A program made the position numbers and the translations under genes. Below, piece by piece: positions 8,760-36,611 of a DNA stretch of 36,611 bases (position 1 is its first letter; every line of letters begins with the position of its first letter). This stretch comes from Armatimonadota bacterium (lineage in GTDB: Bacteria; Armatimonadota; Fimbriimonadia; Fimbriimonadales; ATM1), in assembly GCA_021324165.1 (NCBI GenBank), contig JAJPJR010000019.1, positions 1 through 36,611 of the forward strand. Reading direction: 5' to 3'. Under the pieces are notes generated by a model. That model ran no database searches and was not told the DNA's origin. It saw nothing but the letters and a program-made list of their open reading frames with translations.

Positions 8760-9092
8760 CTACGTGCCCTCGATCGGCTCGTCTGAGATTTCTTGGACAA
8801 AAAGCCCATAGGGGCCGACGCCGAGGATCGTGATGAACACACCCATGCATCCGCCTGCGACGTTCGCCGTCGCGATCACAACTCTTCTGTTCGGCTGAAC
8901 CTTCACTGCCAGCCGTTTTTTGATGAGCGTGTTGTCGAACAGCAGTTCTCGCAGCCCTGGTTCGACCTGCTTTTCGGACGTTTGTCCATATAACAGATCA
9001 ACCATATGCTCGCCATCCACGAACACTTTCACGTCGCGGATTTTGATGTCGTTCGGCTCGTTGCGAACCACGCGAATCGCTCCGCTACTCAT
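8760..9092 (-). CDS. 110-residue protein of unknown function, PEGA-like beta fold
   Basis: The first half (IRVVRNEPNDIKIRDVKVFVDG...) alternates short beta strands and resembles small PEGA-like surface or stalk domains. A glycine-rich hydrophobic segment in the second half (about 80-100, CMGVFITILGVGPYG) could be one membrane helix. No cysteines or catalytic motifs point to an enzyme. It lies between the methyltransferase (8 bp overlap) and ccmA (0 bp gap), so it is part of the same message; its role is unknown. The ATG at 9092 is chosen; a TTG sits one codon upstream. Confidence 0.7.
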   Translation of the reverse strand: MSSGAIRVVRNEPNDIKIRDVKVFVDGEHMVDLLYGQTSEKQVEPGLRELLFDNTLIKKRLAVKVQPNRRVVIATANVAGGCMGVFITILGVGPYGLFVQEISDEPIEGT

Positions 9093-9753
9093 CAAACCCG
9101 CCCACCATTGTAAAAGATTTCGGCCAGCCCTTGAACTTTTCCACGAACAGTTTTGCCCCCGGAAAGGCTCGCATCAGCTCCCGCTTGGTCATCAGCCTTG
9201 CGCTTTTGGCAGCGCGTTCGGCCTGCTGTCTGTCGCTCATCTTTTCAAACCAGCCTAATTTGAAATGCATCAACAGCCAGACTTTCATGCGAAGCGGAAA
9301 GAACTGAAAAAACGGAAACAGGAAGTGGGGCTCGATCGGGAAATATCGGTTAGGAGTTTGAATGTAATACCGTTTGCCGACGCGCATGCACTCATTTGCC
9401 ATTTGAAACTGGTCTTGCAGATCGCCTACGTGCTCGATCACCGAGTTTGAAAACACGATGTCGAACTGTTTATCGGAAAACCGGCTCAGGTCGCGGGCAT
9501 CGCCGGCGAAGCATTGAAATCTTGGGCTTATCGGCTCTTCGGCTTCCAAATTGATCAGCGTAAACTCGATTCCATCTTCGTCCAACATTCCCATCTGCTT
9601 CCAAAAGTTCTGCGTTCCACCTACGTCGAGAATATGAACGGGACGAGGAACGGTGTCGAGCAAACGATGAAAATATTCGAACCGCTTGCGCCGAAGGCGG
9701 TTCCCCAGCGAACTGTCGCTTTCGGAATCGGCGTGTCGTACCAAACCGCGCAT
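9085..9753 (-). CDS. class I SAM-dependent methyltransferase
   Basis: A 222-residue protein with SAM-binding motif I ILDVGGTQNFW (residues 41-51), an acidic residue after the second strand (INLEAEE, about 67-73), and the motif FDIVFSNSVIEHV at 97-109, which is typical of Methyltransf_11-like enzymes. A long amphipathic insert between about 125 and 165 probably forms the substrate lid. The acceptor is unknown. Location between ahcY (which removes the S-adenosylhomocysteine product) and the ccm genes is suggestive only. The ATG at 9753 is 24 bp after the ahcY stop. Confidence 0.85.
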   Translation of the reverse strand: MRGLVRHADSESDSSLGNRLRRKRFEYFHRLLDTVPRPVHILDVGGTQNFWKQMGMLDEDGIEFTLINLEAEEPISPRFQCFAGDARDLSRFSDKQFDIVFSNSVIEHVGDLQDQFQMANECMRVGKRYYIQTPNRYFPIEPHFLFPFFQFFPLRMKVWLLMHFKLGWFEKMSDRQQAERAAKSARLMTKRELMRAFPGAKLFVEKFKGWPKSFTMVGGFDE

Positions 9754-27174: not shown

Positions 27175-27206
27175 GGATTTGGGGACGCAGCGGCACGCGG
27201 GGATAG

Positions 27207-27212
27207 TAAAAT
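27207..27212 (+). promoter_or_regulatory. candidate -10 box (TAAAAT) for the carboxylase gene, leaderless spacing
   Basis: TAAAAT is followed after 8 nt (CGCGGCTG) by the ATG at 27221, with no Shine-Dalgarno sequence between. No clear -35 is seen. Confidence 0.42.
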
Positions 27213-27220
27213 CGCGGCTG

Positions 27221-28810
27221 ATGCAGCCCCTTCGATCCACCGTTGACCCCAAGAGCGCGGAGTTCAAGGCGAACGCTGCTCATTACGAAACGTTGGTGAA
27301 CGCGCTCTGCTCCCTCCGGGCCAACGTGAGAGAAGGCGGACCCGAAAAGGCCCGCGCCCTGCACCAGGAAAGGGGCAAACTCACAGCCCGGCAGCGCATC
27401 GAGGCACTTCTCGACCCCGGCACTCCGTTTCTGGAAATCGGGATGCTCGCCGCAAACGGCCTTTATAACGACGAGGTGCCGAGCGCCGGGATCGTTGCGG
27501 GGGTGGGGCAGGTCTCCGGAAGAATCTGCGTGATCGCCGCAAACGACGCGACCGTGAAAGGCGGCACGTACTATCCGCTGACGATCCGCAAGCACCTGCG
27601 CGCGCAGGAGATCGCGCTGGAAAACCGCCTGCCTGCGATCTATCTTGTGGACAGTGGAGGCGTGTTCCTTCCCATGCAAAGCGAAGTGTTTCCCGACAAG
27701 GAGCATTTCGGAAGAATCTTTTATCAGCAGGCGCAGATGTCGGCATTGCGCATTCCGCAGATTTCAGTTGTGATGGGCATGTGTACGGCGGGCGGCGCCT
27801 ATATTCCGGCAATGAGCGATGAGAACATCATTGTGAAAGGAACGGGAACGATCTATCTTGCCGGACCTCCGCTGGTGAAAGCCGCAACGGGTGAAGAAGT
27901 TTCGGCAGAAGATTTGGGCGGCGGCGAAATGCATTCGCGCATCAGCGGCGTAACCGATCACCTGGCAGAAAACGACGAGCACGCGCTGGAGATTTGCAGA
28001 AGCGTGGTTGAAAACCTCGGAGCATCGCCGTCTTCGCAGCCTCCTTTCGAGATCGAAGAGCCTTTATACGCCGCTTCCGAAATCGAAGGCGTGGTTCCGA
28101 AAGATCCGCGCACGCCTTACGATTCGCGCGAACTGATCGCGCGGTTGGTTGACGGCTCTCGGTTCCATGAATTTAAATCCGGCTATGGCGCAACGCTGGT
28201 GTGCGGATTTGCGCGCTGGATGGGATATCAGGTGGGCATTCTTTCGAACAACGGGGTGCTTTTTTCGGAAAGCGCGTTGAAAGGCGCACATTTTATCGAA
28301 CTGTGCAGTCAGCGGGGGATTCCGCTTGTGTTTTTGCAAAACATCACCGGGTTTATGGTCGGAAAACGGTACGAACAAGGCGGCATCACGCGCGACGGCG
28401 CGAAGATGGTTCAGGCGGTTTCCACCGCGAGCGTTCCGAAAATCACCGTGATTGTGGGGAGCTCGCACGGGGCCGGGAACTACGCCATGTGCGGCAGGGC
28501 TTACGGGCCGCGGTTCCTTTTCAGCTGGCCGAATTCCAAAATCTCGGTGATGGGAGCCGAACAGGCCGCACAAGTGCTGATCACCATCAAAGAGATGAAA
28601 GGCGCGATTTCGGATGAAGAGAAGCGCGAGATCGGCGACCCGGTGCGCAGGCAGTACGAAGAGGAAGGCTCTCCTTATTACGCGACCGCGCGGCTGTGGG
28701 ACGACGGAATCATTCTTCCTTCTGAAACGCGCGCAACCGTGGGTATCTGCCTTGCCGCGGCAACTCAGGCGCCAGGCGAAGAAACGCGCTGGCCCGTGTT
28801 TAGAATGTAA
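27221..28810 (+). CDS. methylcrotonyl-CoA carboxylase beta (carboxyltransferase) subunit
   Basis: A 529-residue carboxyltransferase of the acyl-CoA carboxylase family. It transfers CO2 from biotin to 3-methylcrotonyl-CoA in leucine breakdown. Family marks: [17 protein letters not shown] near the N-terminus, [13 protein letters not shown] in the acyl-CoA site, ITGFMVG, and [17 protein letters not shown] with [11 protein letters not shown], which favours MCC over propionyl-CoA carboxylase. The biotin-carrying alpha subunit is not in the window. The ATG at 27221 is used; a TTG at 27179 is possible but lies before the -10 box. Confidence 0.9.
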
Positions 28811-28817
28811 CAGCTTT

Positions 28818-29582
28818 ATGTCCTCACTATTGGTTGAAAAATCGGGCAGCGTTCTTCGCATCACGCTCAATCGCTCCGAAGTGCGCAACGCGTTCGATGA
28901 CAAGACGATCGCCGAACTCACCGACGCGTTCGCGAACGCAGATGCGCGCGCTGTGGTCCTGTCCGGCGCCGGCAAATCGTTCTGCGCAGGCGGCGATTTG
29001 GAATGGATGCGCCGCTCGATTGATCTTTCAGCCAGTGAAAACTTTGCGGACGCGATGGGCCTCGGCAAGATGTTTGAAACGATCAACAGCTGCCCATGCC
29101 CGGTGATCGGCAAAGTTCACGGAGCGGCATTCGGCGGCGGAGTCGGGTTGGCGTGTGTGTGCGACATCGTCGTGGCTTCGGAAGATGCCAAGTTCTGTTT
29201 CAGCGAAACCAAACTCGGCTTGGCGCCGGCGGTGATCGCCCCTTATGCGTTGCGCAGAATCGGCGAAGCAAATGCGCGAAGATATTTTCTTACAGCGGAA
29301 CTGATCGAAGCCGCCGATGCGAAGCGAATCGGTTTGGCGCATGAGGTCGTTGCGATGGAAAACCTCGATGCGACGGTCAACAAGATCATCGCTTCGATAC
29401 TCTCAAACGGTCCTAAGGCAGTTGCGACAGCGAAATCGCTGATCCGCTCAATCGGCAGTTCCGACCCGAACGACATCGCGCAGATGTGCGCCGAGGCGAT
29501 CTCGTCGCTTCGCGTTTCGCCGGAAGGTCAAGAGGGCGTGCGTGCTTTCTTAGAAAAGCGCAAGCCGAACTGGATCGAGTAA
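28818..29582 (+). CDS. enoyl-CoA hydratase/isomerase, probable methylglutaconyl-CoA hydratase
   Basis: A 254-residue crotonase-fold enzyme. The oxyanion-hole and active-site motifs are SFCAGGDLEWM and GAAFGGGVGLACVCD, with SETKLGLAPAVIAPY carrying the catalytic-type acid. This last stretch is typical of methylglutaconyl-CoA hydratases. It lies 7 bp after the MCC beta subunit, whose product (3-methylglutaconyl-CoA) would be its substrate, giving HMG-CoA. The longer frame upstream is an overlap with MCC. Confidence 0.87.
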   Translation: MSSLLVEKSGSVLRITLNRSEVRNAFDDKTIAELTDAFANADARAVVLSGAGKSFCAGGDLEWMRRSIDLSASENFADAMGLGKMFETINSCPCPVIGKVHGAAFGGGVGLACVCDIVVASEDAKFCFSETKLGLAPAVIAPYALRRIGEANARRYFLTAELIEAADAKRIGLAHEVVAMENLDATVNKIIASILSNGPKAVATAKSLIRSIGSSDPNDIAQMCAEAISSLRVSPEGQEGVRAFLEKRKPNWIE

Positions 29583-29592: not shown

Positions 29593-29955
29593 ATGCAGCC
29601 GAAAGTTTTCAATTGGGACGAGGTGTCCGCCGATTCTCCGATTTCGCTTCTTTCGCGAAGGATCATTCGCGGTCAACAGGCGATGGTCGCTCAGGTGACT
29701 TTGCAGAAGGGCTGTGTGATCAAAACGCACAGTCATGAGAACGAGCAGATCGCCGTGATTTTGTCGGGCCGGGCTCGATTCGGTCTTGGCGATGAACTAA
29801 GCGCCGATCGAACCGAAATCGAGTTGAGGGGCGGCAACGTTTTGGTTTTGGATTCTTGGCTTCCTCATTCGGTGGAGATTTTGGAAGACGCAGTGATCAT
29901 GGACATTTTTTCACCGCCTGCGGATCGGATGGGCGTAGATGATCAAAAGGAGTGA
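29593..29955 (+). CDS. small single-domain cupin protein
   Basis: A 120-residue cupin. Motif 1 is GCVIKTHSHENEQIAVILSG, with metal-type residues in HSHENE. Motif 2 is reduced to VLDSWLPHSVEI with one conserved His. A typical small metal-binding beta barrel; substrate unknown. It may be the last gene of the leucine-degradation operon (10 bp after the hydratase). Its last 110 bp are repeated at 31927-32036, the remains of a second, broken copy. Confidence 0.85.
   Translation: MQPKVFNWDEVSADSPISLLSRRIIRGQQAMVAQVTLQKGCVIKTHSHENEQIAVILSGRARFGLGDELSADRTEIELRGGNVLVLDSWLPHSVEILEDAVIMDIFSPPADRMGVDDQKE
29845..29954 (+). repeat. direct repeat, intact copy (cupin 3' end)
   Basis: Aligns without gaps to 31927-32036: 93 of 110 bases match (17 differences by hand count). 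Many differences fall at third codon positions, so the copies diverged while under protein selection. Confidence 0.85.
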
Positions 29956-29998
29956 CTGCTGCTTAGTTGGTCCAACGTGTGCGGACAAAAAGCCCGGA

Positions 29999-30655
29999 TC
30001 AGTTCTGAACGTTCGCATCGTCTGGAAGACCAGGAAGCGGACGACTTCGCGTTCTGTTCCCGCCGAATGTAACCGTTGCGGCGATACCATCGTTAGAGAA
30101 TCGAAAAGGCGGAGATTTTGTGATTAGTGAAGTCGGTGCGTTTCGCAGAATTATCATATTTGGCTTAATGTTTATTGATTCGAGATTTGCGCTTATCCGC
30201 AATCCTCTGCCTGACCACTTGACGGAACAATTGGATACCCGTTTCCATAATTCGTTGCCGTTCGTTAGTTCACGATGGTAAACGGCGGCGATGCCGGAGC
30301 CATCCAGAGAACCGAATTTATAATTCAATGTCCATACGACAACGAGAGACTGGATCGCCCGGTCACTGGGATCGTCGAAATAAGCTTCAACAGTCGTGGC
30401 CCCAGTTTGAAGAGTCAGCCCCCCGTTGAACTCGATTGCAACTTCGGCTTTTTTTTCAGTAACAATACACGTCGCGCTTTTGATGCGCAATTCTGCCGGC
30501 ACGTCGAGTTCTGTTTCTGACTTTGTGCCATGTGAATTTGGAATCCAGAGCTTCACTGTCGAACGGTTGCTGACGTTGGCCGATTGCTGACAGCACGCTG
30601 ATGTCAAGAGAACGGTTACCGATGTGCAAAAGAGCGATAAGTGCGATCTAATCAT
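29999..30655 (-). CDS. secreted or lipid-anchored protein of unknown function
   Basis: A 218-residue protein with an N-terminal export signal (SLFCTSVTVLLTSACCQQS). A lipoprotein cysteine is possible at TSAC, though the -3 position is Thr rather than Leu or Val. The rest looks beta-rich (alternating hydrophobic and polar residues), with no catalytic motif. The ATG at 30655 has AGGA 6 nt upstream; the longer frame is ignored. It lies 8 bp after the EF-hand gene, same strand, so the two form an operon. No family recognised. Confidence 0.7.
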   Translation of the reverse strand: MIRSHLSLFCTSVTVLLTSACCQQSANVSNRSTVKLWIPNSHGTKSETELDVPAELRIKSATCIVTEKKAEVAIEFNGGLTLQTGATTVEAYFDDPSDRAIQSLVVVWTLNYKFGSLDGSGIAAVYHRELTNGNELWKRVSNCSVKWSGRGLRISANLESINIKPNMIILRNAPTSLITKSPPFRFSNDGIAATVTFGGNRTRSRPLPGLPDDANVQN

Positions 30656-30663
30656 ATGGGTTC

Positions 30664-31857
30664 CTACGCTGTGTGCGAAAACTGGGCACAAATCGGTTCC
30701 GGTGAGGGCGGCCCCATCGGGTCGGGAAAGTCATGACCGACCCTACTTCCATGATCGTTCCACGGATAGAGAAGAGGGTTTCCAACCCATACTAACTCCC
30801 ATGGCTGGCCGTCGCCTCGCTGAACATACACGCGAAGACGGACTTCAATCGGCTTTGCCGAGTCGTAGACAAATCGGATCACCCACGCACCATTGTTATG
30901 AGGCTGCTGAACTTCCCAAACGACAACGAAAGAGCCATCCGGGCGCACGTAAACGTCGCCCTGATCCATTCCGCCAGGCAACGGGCATTGGCCTACCTGG
31001 TAGAGGATTTCGTTTGCATCCAATCGCCCGTTACCATTGAGGTCGCGTCCGATAAAAACGGCATATTCATCAAATCCAAACGGCAGGTCGATCACCCAAA
31101 CTCCGACTAGCCAATCTCCAGTGATCGGAGTGTCCGGCTCCAGATCATAGTCAGTTCGACCATCGCCGTTGACATCATCCTCGTCCCTCCATTTTGAAGG
31201 GTCACCTACTGGCGAGGTATCGGGAATCTGAATAGGCTTTCTTGCTTTTGGAAGTTCATAAGGAAATGGGAACCTGCCAGGTCTTCGAGGCGGAGTCCCT
31301 TGCTGCTGCTGGACCTTCAATGAAACGAGAGAATCACTCACGTTTATTTCAGTTAGCTCGGACGGCAAGTATCGCGATGCCGTCCAGACGAGATAAGACG
31401 CGCCGATTTGCGTGAATGACAGTATGAACGTCACACTTGTTCCAGATATCTCTGGCGTCAGTTGAGCGATTGTTGACTTCGTTCTTAAATCGACGAGCCA
31501 CGCAGTGCCGTTTTGGAAAACATTAGAGACGCCGTCGCCGCCTGCTGGCAGGTACAAAATGCCGAGTGTGTATGGATCGGTGACATAGGGACTCGCGAAG
31601 AATAATTCGACGGCCCAACGACCCGTTCGATTCGCTGGAGGAGCTTCCTTCATAGAAACTGTAATCCGGGTTTGGCCTGCTGGCGTTACAGTTATTGACG
31701 TTCCTGAAATCATCGCATAGTCGGGAACATCGAAACTAACAGGATCCATCGACGGTGGGTACGGAACGGTGTGGACTTCTGAGGAAATGGCGCCGGCAGC
31801 GAACATCCAGCAGAATGCCGATGAGCAGAGCAGATTTGTTGCGCGTGTCCAGTTCAT
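30664..31857 (-). CDS. secreted protein with two EF-hand-type calcium loops, unknown function
   Basis: A 397-residue exported protein (signal about 1-25, ending AAGAISSE). Residues 40-180 look like a beta domain. A Pro-rich linker (188-215) follows. Two calcium-loop sequences are visible: DVNGDGRTDYDL (228-239) and DLNGNGRLDANE (272-283), the dockerin/EF-hand pattern. The C-terminal part is again beta-rich with several tryptophans (VVVWEV, PWELVW). The ATG at 31857 is 9 nt after a perfect TATAAT. Probably an extracellular, calcium-stabilised protein. No family recognised. Confidence 0.75.
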   Translation of the reverse strand: MNWTRATNLLCSSAFCWMFAAGAISSEVHTVPYPPSMDPVSFDVPDYAMISGTSITVTPAGQTRITVSMKEAPPANRTGRWAVELFFASPYVTDPYTLGILYLPAGGDGVSNVFQNGTAWLVDLRTKSTIAQLTPEISGTSVTFILSFTQIGASYLVWTASRYLPSELTEINVSDSLVSLKVQQQQGTPPRRPGRFPFPYELPKARKPIQIPDTSPVGDPSKWRDEDDVNGDGRTDYDLEPDTPITGDWLVGVWVIDLPFGFDEYAVFIGRDLNGNGRLDANEILYQVGQCPLPGGMDQGDVYVRPDGSFVVVWEVQQPHNNGAWVIRFVYDSAKPIEVRLRVYVQRGDGQPWELVWVGNPLLYPWNDHGSRVGHDFPDPMGPPSPEPICAQFSHTA

Positions 31858-31866
31858 ATCACTATT

Positions 31867-31872
31867 ATTATA
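31867..31872 (-). promoter_or_regulatory. perfect TATAAT -10 box for the EF-hand gene, leaderless spacing
   Basis: On the minus strand TATAAT is followed after exactly 9 nt by the ATG at 31857, the same spacing as at the 81-aa gene (6501-6506). The -35 region is poor. It lies inside the insert, close to its right edge. Confidence 0.55.
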
Positions 31873-31917
31873 CCGAGAAGTTGGCCACGGCAGACTTCCC
31901 ACTCAACGTGCACAAGC

Positions 31918-32037
31918 GGAGGTTTAGTTTTGGATTCTTGGCTCCCTCATTCCGTTGAGATTGTGGAAGATGCGGTGATCATGCACATTTTTGCACCGCC
32001 ATCAGACCGTATGGGCGTGGACGATCAGAAAGAGTGG
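31918..32037 (+). pseudogene. remnant of a second cupin gene (3' end only)
   Basis: Codes for VLDSWLPHSVEI and MGVDDQKE in frame, matching the last 37 residues of the intact cupin at 29593-29955, with no start or N-terminal two thirds. Similarity stops abruptly at about 31917, where the AT-richer insert begins. The stop codon is changed to TGG. It ends directly against the stop of the H-X9-DG gene on the other strand. It is not expected to make a functional protein. Confidence 0.85.
31927..32036 (+). repeat. direct repeat, broken copy (cupin 3' end)
   Basis: Partner of 29845-29954 at an offset of 2082 bp, 93 of 110 bases identical with no gaps. Confidence 0.85.
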
Positions 32038-32592
32038 TCAGTTTTTGGAAACCGGGCCCGCGTGCCCATCGGCATAAACCGCCGCGTTGCCGTTTGCGCG
32101 CGGCGGATCGGGAAGCGATTCGAGCGGCGTTTCGTCAAACGCGTTCCGCTCGGTTTTGGTGCTGTCGTAAATGCAGGGCGTTTTTTCGGGCGATCTTATT
32201 TCGGTCCGGCTTTTAGAAGAAAGCTGCCCGTTAAATGCAAACCCATATTTGTCGGTTGTGTTTTCAAATTCCGGCGCGCGGAGTTTTTTTCTGGTTTCCG
32301 AATCGTCCATGTCGGCTGTGTGCATATATTTTTCGAGTTCGTCAACCCAACGGTCTTTGGGGGGATAGCAGTCGTTAGTTTCCAAATAAATCGAGAGCGC
32401 GGTGCCCACCGCTTTCAGGTTTTGCATCGAAGATGTGGAAGAGAACGTGCGTTTGGGCGCGCACTGAATTTCGAGCCATTTTGGAATCAGCCCCAAAAAC
32501 CCTTTGCCGATGACCGCCGCAAGAAGCGCCAGAACCGCCACTGGCAGCCAAAATCTCCAGAGCCATTTTCGTCGGCCTCGGTTGTTGTTCAT
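32038..32592 (-). CDS. H-X9-DG/DUF1559-like protein without a prepilin leader
   Basis: A 184-residue protein with one membrane helix (about 12-38). The stretch SSMQNLKAVGTALSIYLETNDCYPP is the conserved core that follows the helix in DUF1559-type pseudopilins, and the end AVYADGHAG matches the H-X9-DG tail. The N-terminus has no GFTLIE-type prepilin peptidase site, so it may not be assembled into a pilus. It starts one base after the mannosidase stop and is co-transcribed with it. Confidence 0.72.
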   Translation of the reverse strand: MNNNRGRRKWLWRFWLPVAVLALLAAVIGKGFLGLIPKWLEIQCAPKRTFSSTSSMQNLKAVGTALSIYLETNDCYPPKDRWVDELEKYMHTADMDDSETRKKLRAPEFENTTDKYGFAFNGQLSSKSRTEIRSPEKTPCIYDSTKTERNAFDETPLESLPDPPRANGNAAVYADGHAGPVSKN

Positions 32593-32593
32593 A

Positions 32594-35500
32594 TTACAAA
32601 ACGAATTTTATCGTAAGAATCTCAAACGGTGCGAAGTCGAACTCCACCACCCCGCCGCGCACTTCCAACTGTTCGATTTCGCTTTCCATCAGATCGCACA
32701 AGAACGCGCGTTTGAATTTGCGGGCGATTTTGAGCGCTGCTCTGCCCCGCGCGTTGTGACACTCGTACAAACGGACGATGATGTCGTTCCCGTCTTCCGA
32801 TTTTTTCACGCTTTCGATCACGATGTCGCAGTCGCTGCACTCCACGAACGGCTGCAGCGCAGGTGCTGCGCCTTCATGCTTTCCCACAAACCGCCATCTG
32901 AGAGGAAGGTTCAGTGCATAAGCCGCCTGCACCACCCCCGACCAGTTGTACGATCCGTAATGCGGCAGCAGCGCATAACTAAACTTGTGAATCCCCATAT
33001 CGCATTCGGGGTCGGGAGATTTCGGCGAGCGGAGCAGCGTCATGCGCATGGTGTTTCCGAGCACATCGAAACCGTACTTCGAGTCGTTGAGCAGTGCAAC
33101 GCCGTGATCGCCTTCGCTCAGGTCAATCCATTTTTGCGCGCAGACTTCAAACCGTGCCATGTCCCAGGTTGTGTTTCTGTGTGTGGGCCTTTCCACATTG
33201 CCGAACTGAATCTCAAACGTCGCTCTGTTGCAATGCACATTCACAGGAAAAGCCACTTTCAGCATCTTGTTTGACTCGCGCCAGTCCACCATCGTGTCGA
33301 ACCGGATTCCTGGCGTGGGTCCCAAACTGATGCGCTGAACGATGCGGCTTTCGCCGAACCGTTTTTCCACTTCGATCGCGGCGCGCACCGGCCCGCGTTC
33401 TACGATCTCTTCCCTTTCGCACCGAATCAGATCGTGGCCGGTTTCCAGGGCGTAGATGTCCACGTCCCACGCGTCCCAAAACAACGGCACATCATCAAAG
33501 ATTTGGAAAAGATTTGCGAGTTTGCCGGGTTCGACGTATTCGGTTTGGTCTTCCAACGAGAGAATGCTGGTGATGTTTCCGTGGCCGTCGAACTGCACGC
33601 CCCACGTGTCGTTTTCGAGCCGGCGCTGCGTGGCTTTCAGGCGCGGCTTTGCGGGAAACGGCTCTTTGCGAAAATCCGCGATGCACACAGAGCCGAGGGC
33701 GGCCTCGGGCGTTTTGAAAATCCAATACTTTTCGCCGAACTCCTCGATCATCTGCACCGGGAGCGTTTCTTCTCCGCAAATCAAGTGCGTGGGCGCCGCG
33801 CCTTTGGGAGCGCGGATTCTGGCTTCGGTACTGACGTCTGCAGACGTGAACATCGCGCACGGCTTCTGCGTTTTGGAGGTGTCCAACGTTTCGGAATGGC
33901 GGTCCAAACAGCCTTGAATCATTTTGCCTGCCGCATCCAAAACGTGCGCATAATCTTTTTGACTGTCGCGATACACCTCGGTTACCGAGCTTCCCGGAAG
34001 GATATCATGAAACTGATTCAGCAGAACAAGCTTCCAAAGTTTTTGAATCTCATCTCCTGGATAGTGCGTCGGGAACTTCGGGCCGAACGCGCAGAGCCAC
34101 TCCAGATCGCGCAGCGCGAATTCGCATTCCCGATTCTGTTTTTTGGTCTTGGCCTGAGATGTGTATGTTCCGCGGTGCAGTTCGAAATAAAGTTCACCGA
34201 CCCAACTCTGCAAGTCTTTGCTTTTTGCACGGGCCTCTTCGAAGAACTCTGCCGCTTTGCGCCATTCTATTTGGGGCATGCTGGTAGCGCGGGAGGCGCG
34301 CATCAGCATTTCGATGTTTTCGGCGGTCGGCCCGCCGCCGCCGTCTCCTTGGCCGAAAATGTAAAGCCCGAAATCGGAGCGCGCGTGGTCGCGGTTCGCG
34401 GTCAGATGTTTGCGAAGCTGGGCTGGGTCGCAGTCGCCCGTATAGGTGTCCGACGGCGGAAAATGCGTCCAGATTCTGCTTCCGTCAATCCCTTCCCACC
34501 AGAACGTGTTATGAGGAAACTTGTTAAACTGGTTCCACGAAATCTTTTGCGTAACGAACTGTTCGATGCCCGCTTTTTTCATGATCTGCGGCAGCGCCGC
34601 CGAATACCCGAAGCAGTCGGGCAGCCACAACGTTTTCGAATCGGTGTCCAGTTTTTTTGCGAAATACCTCTTGCCGTACAGTATCTGCCGGACGAGCGAT
34701 TCGCCGTTCGGGATGTTCGTATCGCATTCGATCCACAAACTTCCGATCGGCTCCCACTGGTTTTTGGCGATTTTCTGTTTGACGCGTTCGAACAGTTTCG
34801 GATGCTGCTGCTCCAGCCATTCATACTGTGCGGGCTGGCTGTGAACAAACACGTAATCGGGATACTGATCCATCAGCGCGAGTTGAATGGCGGTTGTGTG
34901 CGCCATCTTTTTCATGGTGATGTCGAGCGGCCAAAGCCACGCCGTATCAAGGTGCGCATGTCCCAACGGCGTGACGGAGTGATAACGATCAACCCGCCGG
35001 GCGGCAGTGGCTTCTTTGACCGATTTTTTTGCGCTTTGCAAACTTTCCCGCTTTGCGGGGTTGAAGATGTTGGCGGCGTCGTTCAAACCGCGAAGCAGGT
35101 GCTCTCGTGCGGCGTCGCCTTCAGGAAGGTTTTTCATCAAAAGAAACGCAAACTGAACGTCGAGCCAAAACTCCCACAAATCCAGATCGATGCAGCGGAG
35201 TTCGGCGGTCTCGAATCGGAACGGCTGTTCGGCGCGCGGCGGCGGAGTTCCGTGCACCCGAACGTCCGGGTTGCCTCCATACGCCTCGATCATTAAATCA
35301 ACTTTTTCTCCGCCGCGGGCCGCTTTGGCGATCCGGAACAGGCTGTGCTCGCTGTCCAGCCCCCAAACGGGTTGGTTGGACTTCCAGATCGTGCGCTCGC
35401 CGCCCAGTTCAAGCACGGCGGCTACGGTTTTCCCGCCCCACGATCGGGGAACCGTTCCAGTCGCGCGAAACCAGACGGTGCGGTACGCCGGCCCCCAGGC

Positions 35501-35671
35501 AAAGCCGGGGCTCACGGGCTTCCACGGCCCCGAAACGGCGGCCTGCTGACTCGGGTGCGGAACCGCGCAGAACTCGATCCCAAGGGGGCTGGGCTCGCCC
35601 AGAAACGCCTGTTTCAGCGTCCGCACCAGCATCTCGATTCGGCGCTCGGTGATCTCACGGTGCTTCTGCAT
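32594..35671 (-). CDS. GH38 family alpha-mannosidase
   Basis: A 1025-residue glycoside hydrolase of family 38, which cleaves alpha-mannosides using a bound zinc. Visible motifs (numbering from this start): GHAHLDTAW with metal ligands H240 and D242, LPDCFGYS with the nucleophile Asp at about 352, and GQGDGGGGPT, the third conserved loop. N-terminal and C-terminal beta domains flank the catalytic barrel as in bacterial members. No signal peptide, so cytoplasmic use of imported mannosides is likely. The ATG at 35671 opens with KHREITERRIEML, like relatives; an ATG at 35719 would add 16 residues. Confidence 0.93.
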   Translation of the reverse strand: MQKHREITERRIEMLVRTLKQAFLGEPSPLGIEFCAVPHPSQQAAVSGPWKPVSPGFAWGPAYRTVWFRATGTVPRSWGGKTVAAVLELGGERTIWKSNQPVWGLDSEHSLFRIAKAARGGEKVDLMIEAYGGNPDVRVHGTPPPRAEQPFRFETAELRCIDLDLWEFWLDVQFAFLLMKNLPEGDAAREHLLRGLNDAANIFNPAKRESLQSAKKSVKEATAARRVDRYHSVTPLGHAHLDTAWLWPLDITMKKMAHTTAIQLALMDQYPDYVFVHSQPAQYEWLEQQHPKLFERVKQKIAKNQWEPIGSLWIECDTNIPNGESLVRQILYGKRYFAKKLDTDSKTLWLPDCFGYSAALPQIMKKAGIEQFVTQKISWNQFNKFPHNTFWWEGIDGSRIWTHFPPSDTYTGDCDPAQLRKHLTANRDHARSDFGLYIFGQGDGGGGPTAENIEMLMRASRATSMPQIEWRKAAEFFEEARAKSKDLQSWVGELYFELHRGTYTSQAKTKKQNRECEFALRDLEWLCAFGPKFPTHYPGDEIQKLWKLVLLNQFHDILPGSSVTEVYRDSQKDYAHVLDAAGKMIQGCLDRHSETLDTSKTQKPCAMFTSADVSTEARIRAPKGAAPTHLICGEETLPVQMIEEFGEKYWIFKTPEAALGSVCIADFRKEPFPAKPRLKATQRRLENDTWGVQFDGHGNITSILSLEDQTEYVEPGKLANLFQIFDDVPLFWDAWDVDIYALETGHDLIRCEREEIVERGPVRAAIEVEKRFGESRIVQRISLGPTPGIRFDTMVDWRESNKMLKVAFPVNVHCNRATFEIQFGNVERPTHRNTTWDMARFEVCAQKWIDLSEGDHGVALLNDSKYGFDVLGNTMRMTLLRSPKSPDPECDMGIHKFSYALLPHYGSYNWSGVVQAAYALNLPLRWRFVGKHEGAAPALQPFVECSDCDIVIESVKKSEDGNDIIVRLYECHNARGRAALKIARKFKRAFLCDLMESEIEQLEVRGGVVEFDFAPFEILTIKFVL

Positions 35672-35741
35672 GGAAATGGGGCTTGGTAAAGTTCGCCGCA
35701 CACAGCCCGTTTCCTGCATCTCGCGAACCGCCGAACTCGTC

Positions 35742-35747
35742 TATAAT
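35742..35747 (+). promoter_or_regulatory. perfect TATAAT -10 box upstream of the dprA-like gene
   Basis: TATAAT in an AT-rich patch between the divergent mannosidase and dprA-like genes. It ends 7 nt before ATC (35755), which is in frame with the DprA N-terminus. The -35 is weak. Confidence 0.5.
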
Positions 35748-35754
35748 TTTATAT

Positions 35755-36611
35755 ATCCAAAATCCTATATCACACTTCGATCCGCAGTTATCGGTTCTGC
35801 TCTTTAGCCGATGGCCCGGCCGGAAGGTGGGTACCGTGCCTCCGCGGCAGTGGCTGCCGATTCTCCAGCACGGCTGCCCGGGCGGCCGGCCCGATCTGCG
35901 CCTTCTGCGCGCCCAAGGCTTTTGGGAAGCTGCCGCCTTGTGCGGCTCGAACGATCTTTGGGCTGAGGCTGCCCAGGTGGTTTCGGACGCAGCGGCGGCC
36001 GGGTGGAAGCCTTTGGCTCCTGGCTGCGAGGGTTACCCCGTGCGGCTTCACACGGTTCTGGGGCGCTTGGCCCCGCCGCTGATTTGGCTGAAGGGAAGCC
36101 ATCCGGAAATGCGCAGGCTGGCGGCCGTGGTCGGAAGCCGCCGGCTGAGGCCTGCCGAATCGCGCGCTGCGTTTGAGGCGGGCGCGCTGCTTGCGCGGCT
36201 GGGTTTCGGGGTGATCTCAGGCGGGGCGGCAGGGTCGGACAGCATGGGAGTTCTCGGCGCAGTGAGCGCGGGCGGGTTTGGGGCGCATTTTCTGCCGGGC
36301 TCTGCGTGCAGGCGCTCACTTCGCTGCTCGGCTCTGTTTTGCGAATCTCCTTGGTCTCCGCGTTTCGACAGGATCGCCGCCCTGCGCCGGAACCGATGGA
36401 TCTATGCCGCAAGCGAGGCCGCGGTGGTGATCTCGAGCCGGTTGGGTGAAGGAGGAAGCTGGCACGGCGCGGTTGCCGCCCGGCGCGAAAAACTGTCGCG
36501 CGTGCTCATTCATCTGGCTTCGCCCCCAAGCGAGGGCAATGCGGCCTTGGCTAAGCTTGGAATGGAGGCGTTCGAAGACGAAGCCGGCCTGATGCGCGCG
36601 CTGGAGCGCGA
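35755..36611 (+). CDS. dprA: DprA-like DNA-processing protein (runs off the window end)
   Basis: A frame open to the last base, about 285 residues visible. It carries the Rossmann-fold DprA marks: VVGSRRL, VISGGAAGSDSMG and RNRWIYAASEAAVVISSRLGEGGSW. It follows the DprA subgroup whose later motifs read RNxxIYA and GGxWxGA. DprA loads RecA on incoming single-stranded DNA during transformation. The N-terminal sequence QLSVLLFSRWPG belongs to the family but has no ATG, GTG or TTG after 35683. Candidates are TTG 35683, ATC 35755 (7 nt after TATAAT, used here), or a shortened GTG 35836 with AAGGTGG just before it. Start is uncertain; family is fairly secure. Confidence 0.72.
   Translation, partial: MQNPISHFDPQLSVLLFSRWPGRKVGTVPPRQWLPILQHGCPGGRPDLRLLRAQGFWEAAALCGSNDLWAEAAQVVSDAAAAGWKPLAPGCEGYPVRLHTVLGRLAPPLIWLKGSHPEMRRLAAVVGSRRLRPAESRAAFEAGALLARLGFGVISGGAAGSDSMGVLGAVSAGGFGAHFLPGSACRRSLRCSALFCESPWSPRFDRIAALRRNRWIYAASEAAVVISSRLGEGGSWHGAVAARREKLSRVLIHLASPPSEGNAALAKLGMEAFEDEAGLMRALER

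Follow-up and report, generated by a model that had tools for sequence, protein, structure and literature searches.

The cupin gene and the repeat of its 3' end

The window, i.e. the whole stretch of 36,611 nucleotides that was analyzed, comprises all of one contig (C12) of an Armatimonadota genome of 2.33 Mb, which is distributed over 83 contigs and rated 97% complete. On its forward strand a gene for a carboxyl transferase subunit of the acyl-CoA carboxylase beta type (27179-28810; Pfam Carboxyl_trans, 3.8e-156) is followed in the same direction by an enoyl-CoA hydratase/isomerase gene (28818-29582; Pfam ECH_1, 3.3e-54) and, 10 bp downstream of the latter, by an intact cupin gene of 120 amino acids (29593-29955; Pfam Cupin_2, 6.9e-9), whose homologues in eight relatives show 41-50% identity. 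Seven relatives from the same family served for comparison. Homologues of the carboxyl transferase and hydratase genes lie close together in two relatives (G005 and G001); the hydratase occurs in six of the seven family members and, in the stretches read, is not located beside a cupin gene. As all seven belong to other genera, a direct comparison of the locus before and after the event is not possible. A scan of the GTDB 220 contig collection for closer relatives returned only a hydratase from Massilia.

The 3'-terminal 110 bp of the cupin gene (copy 1, 29845-29954) reappear on the same strand at 31927-32036 (copy 2). We could confirm the preliminary description of this repeat, with 93 of 110 positions identical and no gap. 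In a BLAST comparison the match extends over 114 bp (29841-29954 and 31923-32036; 84% identity, E about 1e-27). Within the whole 2.33-Mb genome the sequence occurs at these two places only and a third copy is absent, so that the similarity is not due to chance. The repeat opens with 17 identical bases, the longest exact stretch common to both copies. Copy 2 is an orphan 3' end, as had been described: the first two thirds of the gene are gone, and TGG is found where copy 1 has its stop codon TGA.

Both copies share the same reading frame throughout. Third codon positions account for 13 of the 17 differences (expectation one third, P = 3e-4), and four amino acids are changed. The Nei-Gojobori count leads to a dN of about 0.05 and a dS of about 1.05, the latter being a rough value since it is based on 23 synonymous sites. 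From the prevalence of silent differences it follows that both copies evolved as coding DNA, under selection at the protein level, before copy 2 became a fragment. The earlier view that the copies are old and do not stem from a fresh target duplication is therefore upheld. Both contain the motif DSWLPHS and an extra residue before MGVD, neither of which was seen in the homologues of other genera, indicating that the copies separated within the lineage.

Compared to eight homologous cupins, copy 2 carries His where all others have Asp, and Ala where all others have Ser or Thr. Together with the missing stop codon, this is what would be expected of a tail that loses its function after divergence. 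Judged from these positions, copy 2 probably lost its purpose, stop codon included, after the two copies had diverged, and the orphan cupin tail probably does nothing.

The inserted segment and the right flank

Between the two copies lies a segment of 1,971 bp (29956-31926) with a GC content of 51.3%. Windows of the same size in a 340-kb sample have a mean of 56.2% (sd 1.6), which places the segment in the lowest 0.4%. The proposed AT-richness of the insert thus stands; one must keep in mind that the genes on either side of it, cupin and 184-aa, are also somewhat AT-rich (GC about 0.53). The bias is visible at the third codon position of its two genes as well, with GC3 values of 0.526 (percentile 2.5) for the putative secreted protein and 0.493 (percentile 0.9) for the putative lipoprotein, in relation to a mean of 0.637 (sd 0.048) over 1,249 reading frames with a minimum length of 200 codons. 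By both measures, the composition of the insert is unusual. A search for a second copy of the insert in the genome itself gave only matches under 40 bp. The promoter that had been assigned to the insert found no support: promoter-like sites are no more frequent than in shuffled sequence, and the 412-aa frame has none at its start.

Two genes, both on the reverse strand, are contained in the segment, as previously reported. The label "secreted" given to them relies on N-terminal signal sequences recognized by eye. The genes probably encode a secreted protein and a lipoprotein. The putative secreted protein (30664-31857) has 397 amino acids counted from an ATG and shows two EF-hand-like motifs. 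Weak relatives, mostly matching its C-terminal part, occur in 10 of 60 relative genomes. It is without a Pfam match above the cut-off and without a match in PHROG, NCBIfam or PDB, and the predicted structure is unreliable, with a mean pLDDT of 37.8. The putative lipoprotein gene (29999-30658, with its start near 30658; 230 amino acids if an upstream TTG is used) contains a lipobox-like LTSAC, again assigned by eye. It has no Pfam match above the cut-off and none in PHROG. In 290 further genomes of the phylum a single relative was found, 32% identical; it lies in a different context in G003, and a homologue of the first insert gene is not present in the stretch read there.

At the right edge of the repeat follows an intact gene of 184 amino acids on the reverse strand (32038-32592). 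Its stop codon (32038-32040) is one base away from the cupin fragment, which ends at 32036. The next gene (32594-35719, reverse strand) encodes a glycoside hydrolase of family 38, alpha-mannosidase type (Pfam Glyco_hydro_38N, 3.8e-85). Homologues of the 184-aa gene (28-48% identical) occur in all seven family members, as do those of the mannosidase gene (56-64% identical), and the two genes are neighbors here and in most of the family. Divergent from the mannosidase gene, a frame resembling dprA by sequence motif is located at 35683-36609 on the forward strand, where it is cut by the contig end.

In most of the relatives the 184-aa gene has another companion. The gene sbcD is present in all seven and follows the 184-aa gene in five, in four of them directly (G002, G003, G005 and G006); the names sbcD and sbcC are here based on recognizable N-terminal sequences and not on a family search. 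In G004 an additional lipoprotein-like gene on the other strand is situated between the 184-aa gene and sbcD, so that this spot (position 32038 of the window, and L056:10577-11434) varies in two genera. A query with SbcD that matches all seven relatives found nothing in the present genome, and SbcC gave only a 55-residue match to a 1,226-aa frame, in its N-terminal ATPase region. As the genome is not quite complete, a loss of sbcCD is likely rather than certain. Since sbcD follows the 184-aa gene in five relatives and the cupin fragment is found there instead, the right edge represents a breakpoint specific to this lineage, a feature that had been overlooked and is newly reported here.

One could ask whether the arrangement is an assembly chimera, i.e. 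whether cupin ends from two different strains were fused during assembly. The genome is divided into 83 contigs, and related strains with about 85% identity can mislead assemblers. The longest exact stretch between the copies, however, is short for the usual assembly joins, a run of N is absent, and neither sbcCD nor another cupin context is found elsewhere in the nearly complete genome. We regard a chimera as improbable.

Origin of the arrangement

The locus is a real and well-delimited scar, ordinary in kind, and looks like a product of DNA gain and loss, not like a new type of system. As its origin we tentatively favor, with somewhat less than even confidence, the acquisition of DNA at the cupin gene through one homologous and one non-homologous end. 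According to this proposal, the incoming DNA would have carried the genes for both secreted proteins together with the diverged 3' end of a cupin gene, and the cupin gene of the host would have been its point of entry. Homologous pairing inside the cupin tail would have joined one end, and the other end would have been attached without homology. The host would have kept a full-length cupin gene, with the displaced 110-bp tail left on the far side. The genes sbcD and sbcC, the usual followers of the 184-aa gene, would also have been lost at the same place, in this or in another event.

The unusual composition of the insert and the near-absence of its lipoprotein gene elsewhere support an acquisition, as does the breakpoint at the right edge. 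A further hint arises from the cupin genes of the relatives: each relative with a cupin match has one and never more, all of these being from other genera. This makes a second lineage a better candidate than an old paralogue for the source of the diverged copy and lets us lean towards acquisition. One junction lies in sequence homologous to the host gene, namely the repeat of the cupin 3' end. Upstream of 31918-31927 there is no clear homology, although some short matches make the boundary indistinct. In homology-facilitated illegitimate recombination, the second junction usually contains a micro-homology of 3-10 bp.

Joins with homology at one end and none at the other have been described for three competent species. 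In a test with E. coli most products were partial duplications, which were attributed to a single crossing-over of a recircularized fragment (PMC3240628). The cupin locus resembles homology-facilitated illegitimate recombination and such single-crossover insertion-duplication in having one homologous and one apparently non-homologous junction, and in that the target gene is partly duplicated beside the inserted DNA (PMC3240628). It differs from these systems (PMC3240628) in the cupin homology, which is short and 15% diverged, and in that the mechanism is proposed from the sequence. Against the acquisition speaks that 110 bp with 15% mismatch offer a poor anchor for homologous pairing, and that in typical homology-facilitated events a similarly sized piece of host DNA is deleted and not duplicated (PMC3240628).

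Entry of foreign DNA by recombination at one homologous end had also been put forward in the preliminary description. Its premises, old diverged copies and an unusual insert, are borne out by our data, whereas transformation and illegitimate recombination are not established by them. The genes that had been cited in favor of a transformable host are indeed found in the window, i.e. the type IV pilus genes for PilM, PilO and a secretin together with the dprA-like frame, but genes of this sort are widespread and cannot tell which event took place. The four-part order of the locus was not seen in any of the seven family members, all of other genera.

An old tandem duplication, the alternative mentioned from the beginning, turned out to be almost as well supported and is almost as likely. 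It would have produced two adjacent cupin genes under selection, of which the second would later have lost its first two thirds to the insertion of the two-gene segment. The coding-type divergence with a dS of about 1 is in agreement with this, and homologous pairing of diverged DNA becomes unnecessary. Moreover, copy 2 ends as a native gene would, at its own expected stop position beside the convergent stop codon of the 184-aa gene; such an end would fit a tandem paralogue just as well, and the neat abutment makes us lean slightly to this side. A headless 3' fragment beside an intact copy is also what a decayed tandem paralogue with an insertion-deletion would look like. Such a paralogue would, however, require a duplication as well as an insertion with two non-homologous joins, and a second full-length cupin gene is not known in the relatives, whose genomes, from other genera, have at most one match each.

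The locus offers a clearly bounded example of the entry of small cargo into a genome with no recognizable mobile element. The lineage has received little study, and sbcCD seems to be missing at this very place. Its importance would grow only with the discovery of additional cases that follow common junction rules.

Mobile elements and other displaced 3' ends

Two kinds of mobile DNA were considered for the insert and rejected. In the case of a transposon or insertion sequence, no inverted repeat among the 25 longest pairs joins the ends of the insert, and no transposase is encoded. Cargo of phage or plasmid origin was dismissed because neither insert gene has a relative in the phage, plasmid and viral collections searched, the 397-aa protein having been compared to phages, viral contigs and plasmids, and the lipoprotein also to plasmids.

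A third possibility is a site-specific integrative element with its attachment site in the cupin 3' end, which would bring along a substitute tail in the manner of prophage e14 in the E. coli gene icd. The geometry of intact gene, cargo and displaced, diverged tail is matching, and the 17 identical bases that open the repeat could represent a core. As in e14, a whole gene with a different tail is found together with the displaced original, and the differences are mostly silent (PMC2973815). The insert differs from e14 (PMC2973815) in that it comprises 2 kb and not 15 kb, is without recombinase or phage genes, and is known only in its inserted form. A recombinase is not encoded in the two-gene, 1.97-kb segment, and the result of the phage, plasmid and viral searches likewise speaks against such an element, which we consider quite improbable.

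A self-comparison covering 1.98 of the 2.33 Mb revealed two further orphan 3' ends of about 100 bp downstream of intact frames (C1:9024-9122 and C65:2572-2679), which could be taken in favor of an integrative element. The three orphan tails, however, have no common junction motif by eye, and one of the other two is of the PEP-CTERM type, a motif common to many proteins. Among the rare matches in the 1.98 Mb, duplicated 3' ends (16) are opposed by 21 duplicated 5' ends and 17 middles, which is a further argument against such an element, and a general rule of displaced 3' ends was discarded on these counts. It would be most surprising if the lineage possessed recombinase-less cassettes at gene 3' ends, each with a replacement tail of about 100 bp and with the cupin and C65 loci as examples.

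The two additional tails may be described as follows. In C65 (L143) a frame stands at the contig start; its last 36 codons (173-280) are found again 2.4 kb further downstream, at 2572-2679, as an orphan tail with a stop codon, with prepilin-like and DNA methyltransferase-like frames in between. In C1 (L072) the PEP-CTERM-type tail at 801-899 recurs 8.2 kb downstream (9024-9122) without the rest of the gene.

The self-comparison also exposed a dispersed repeat family that does not touch the cupin locus. Its members of about 60-140 bp, 80-98% identical and often in short tandem runs, are found on more than 12 contigs, e.g. at C16:4268-4751, C62:10581-11354, C18:18288-18657, C45:1887-2221 and C1:936-1067 as well as on C65, C80 and C9. 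A separate array with a period of about 66 bp and about 74% identity occupies a contig start (C68:1-1430, L146).
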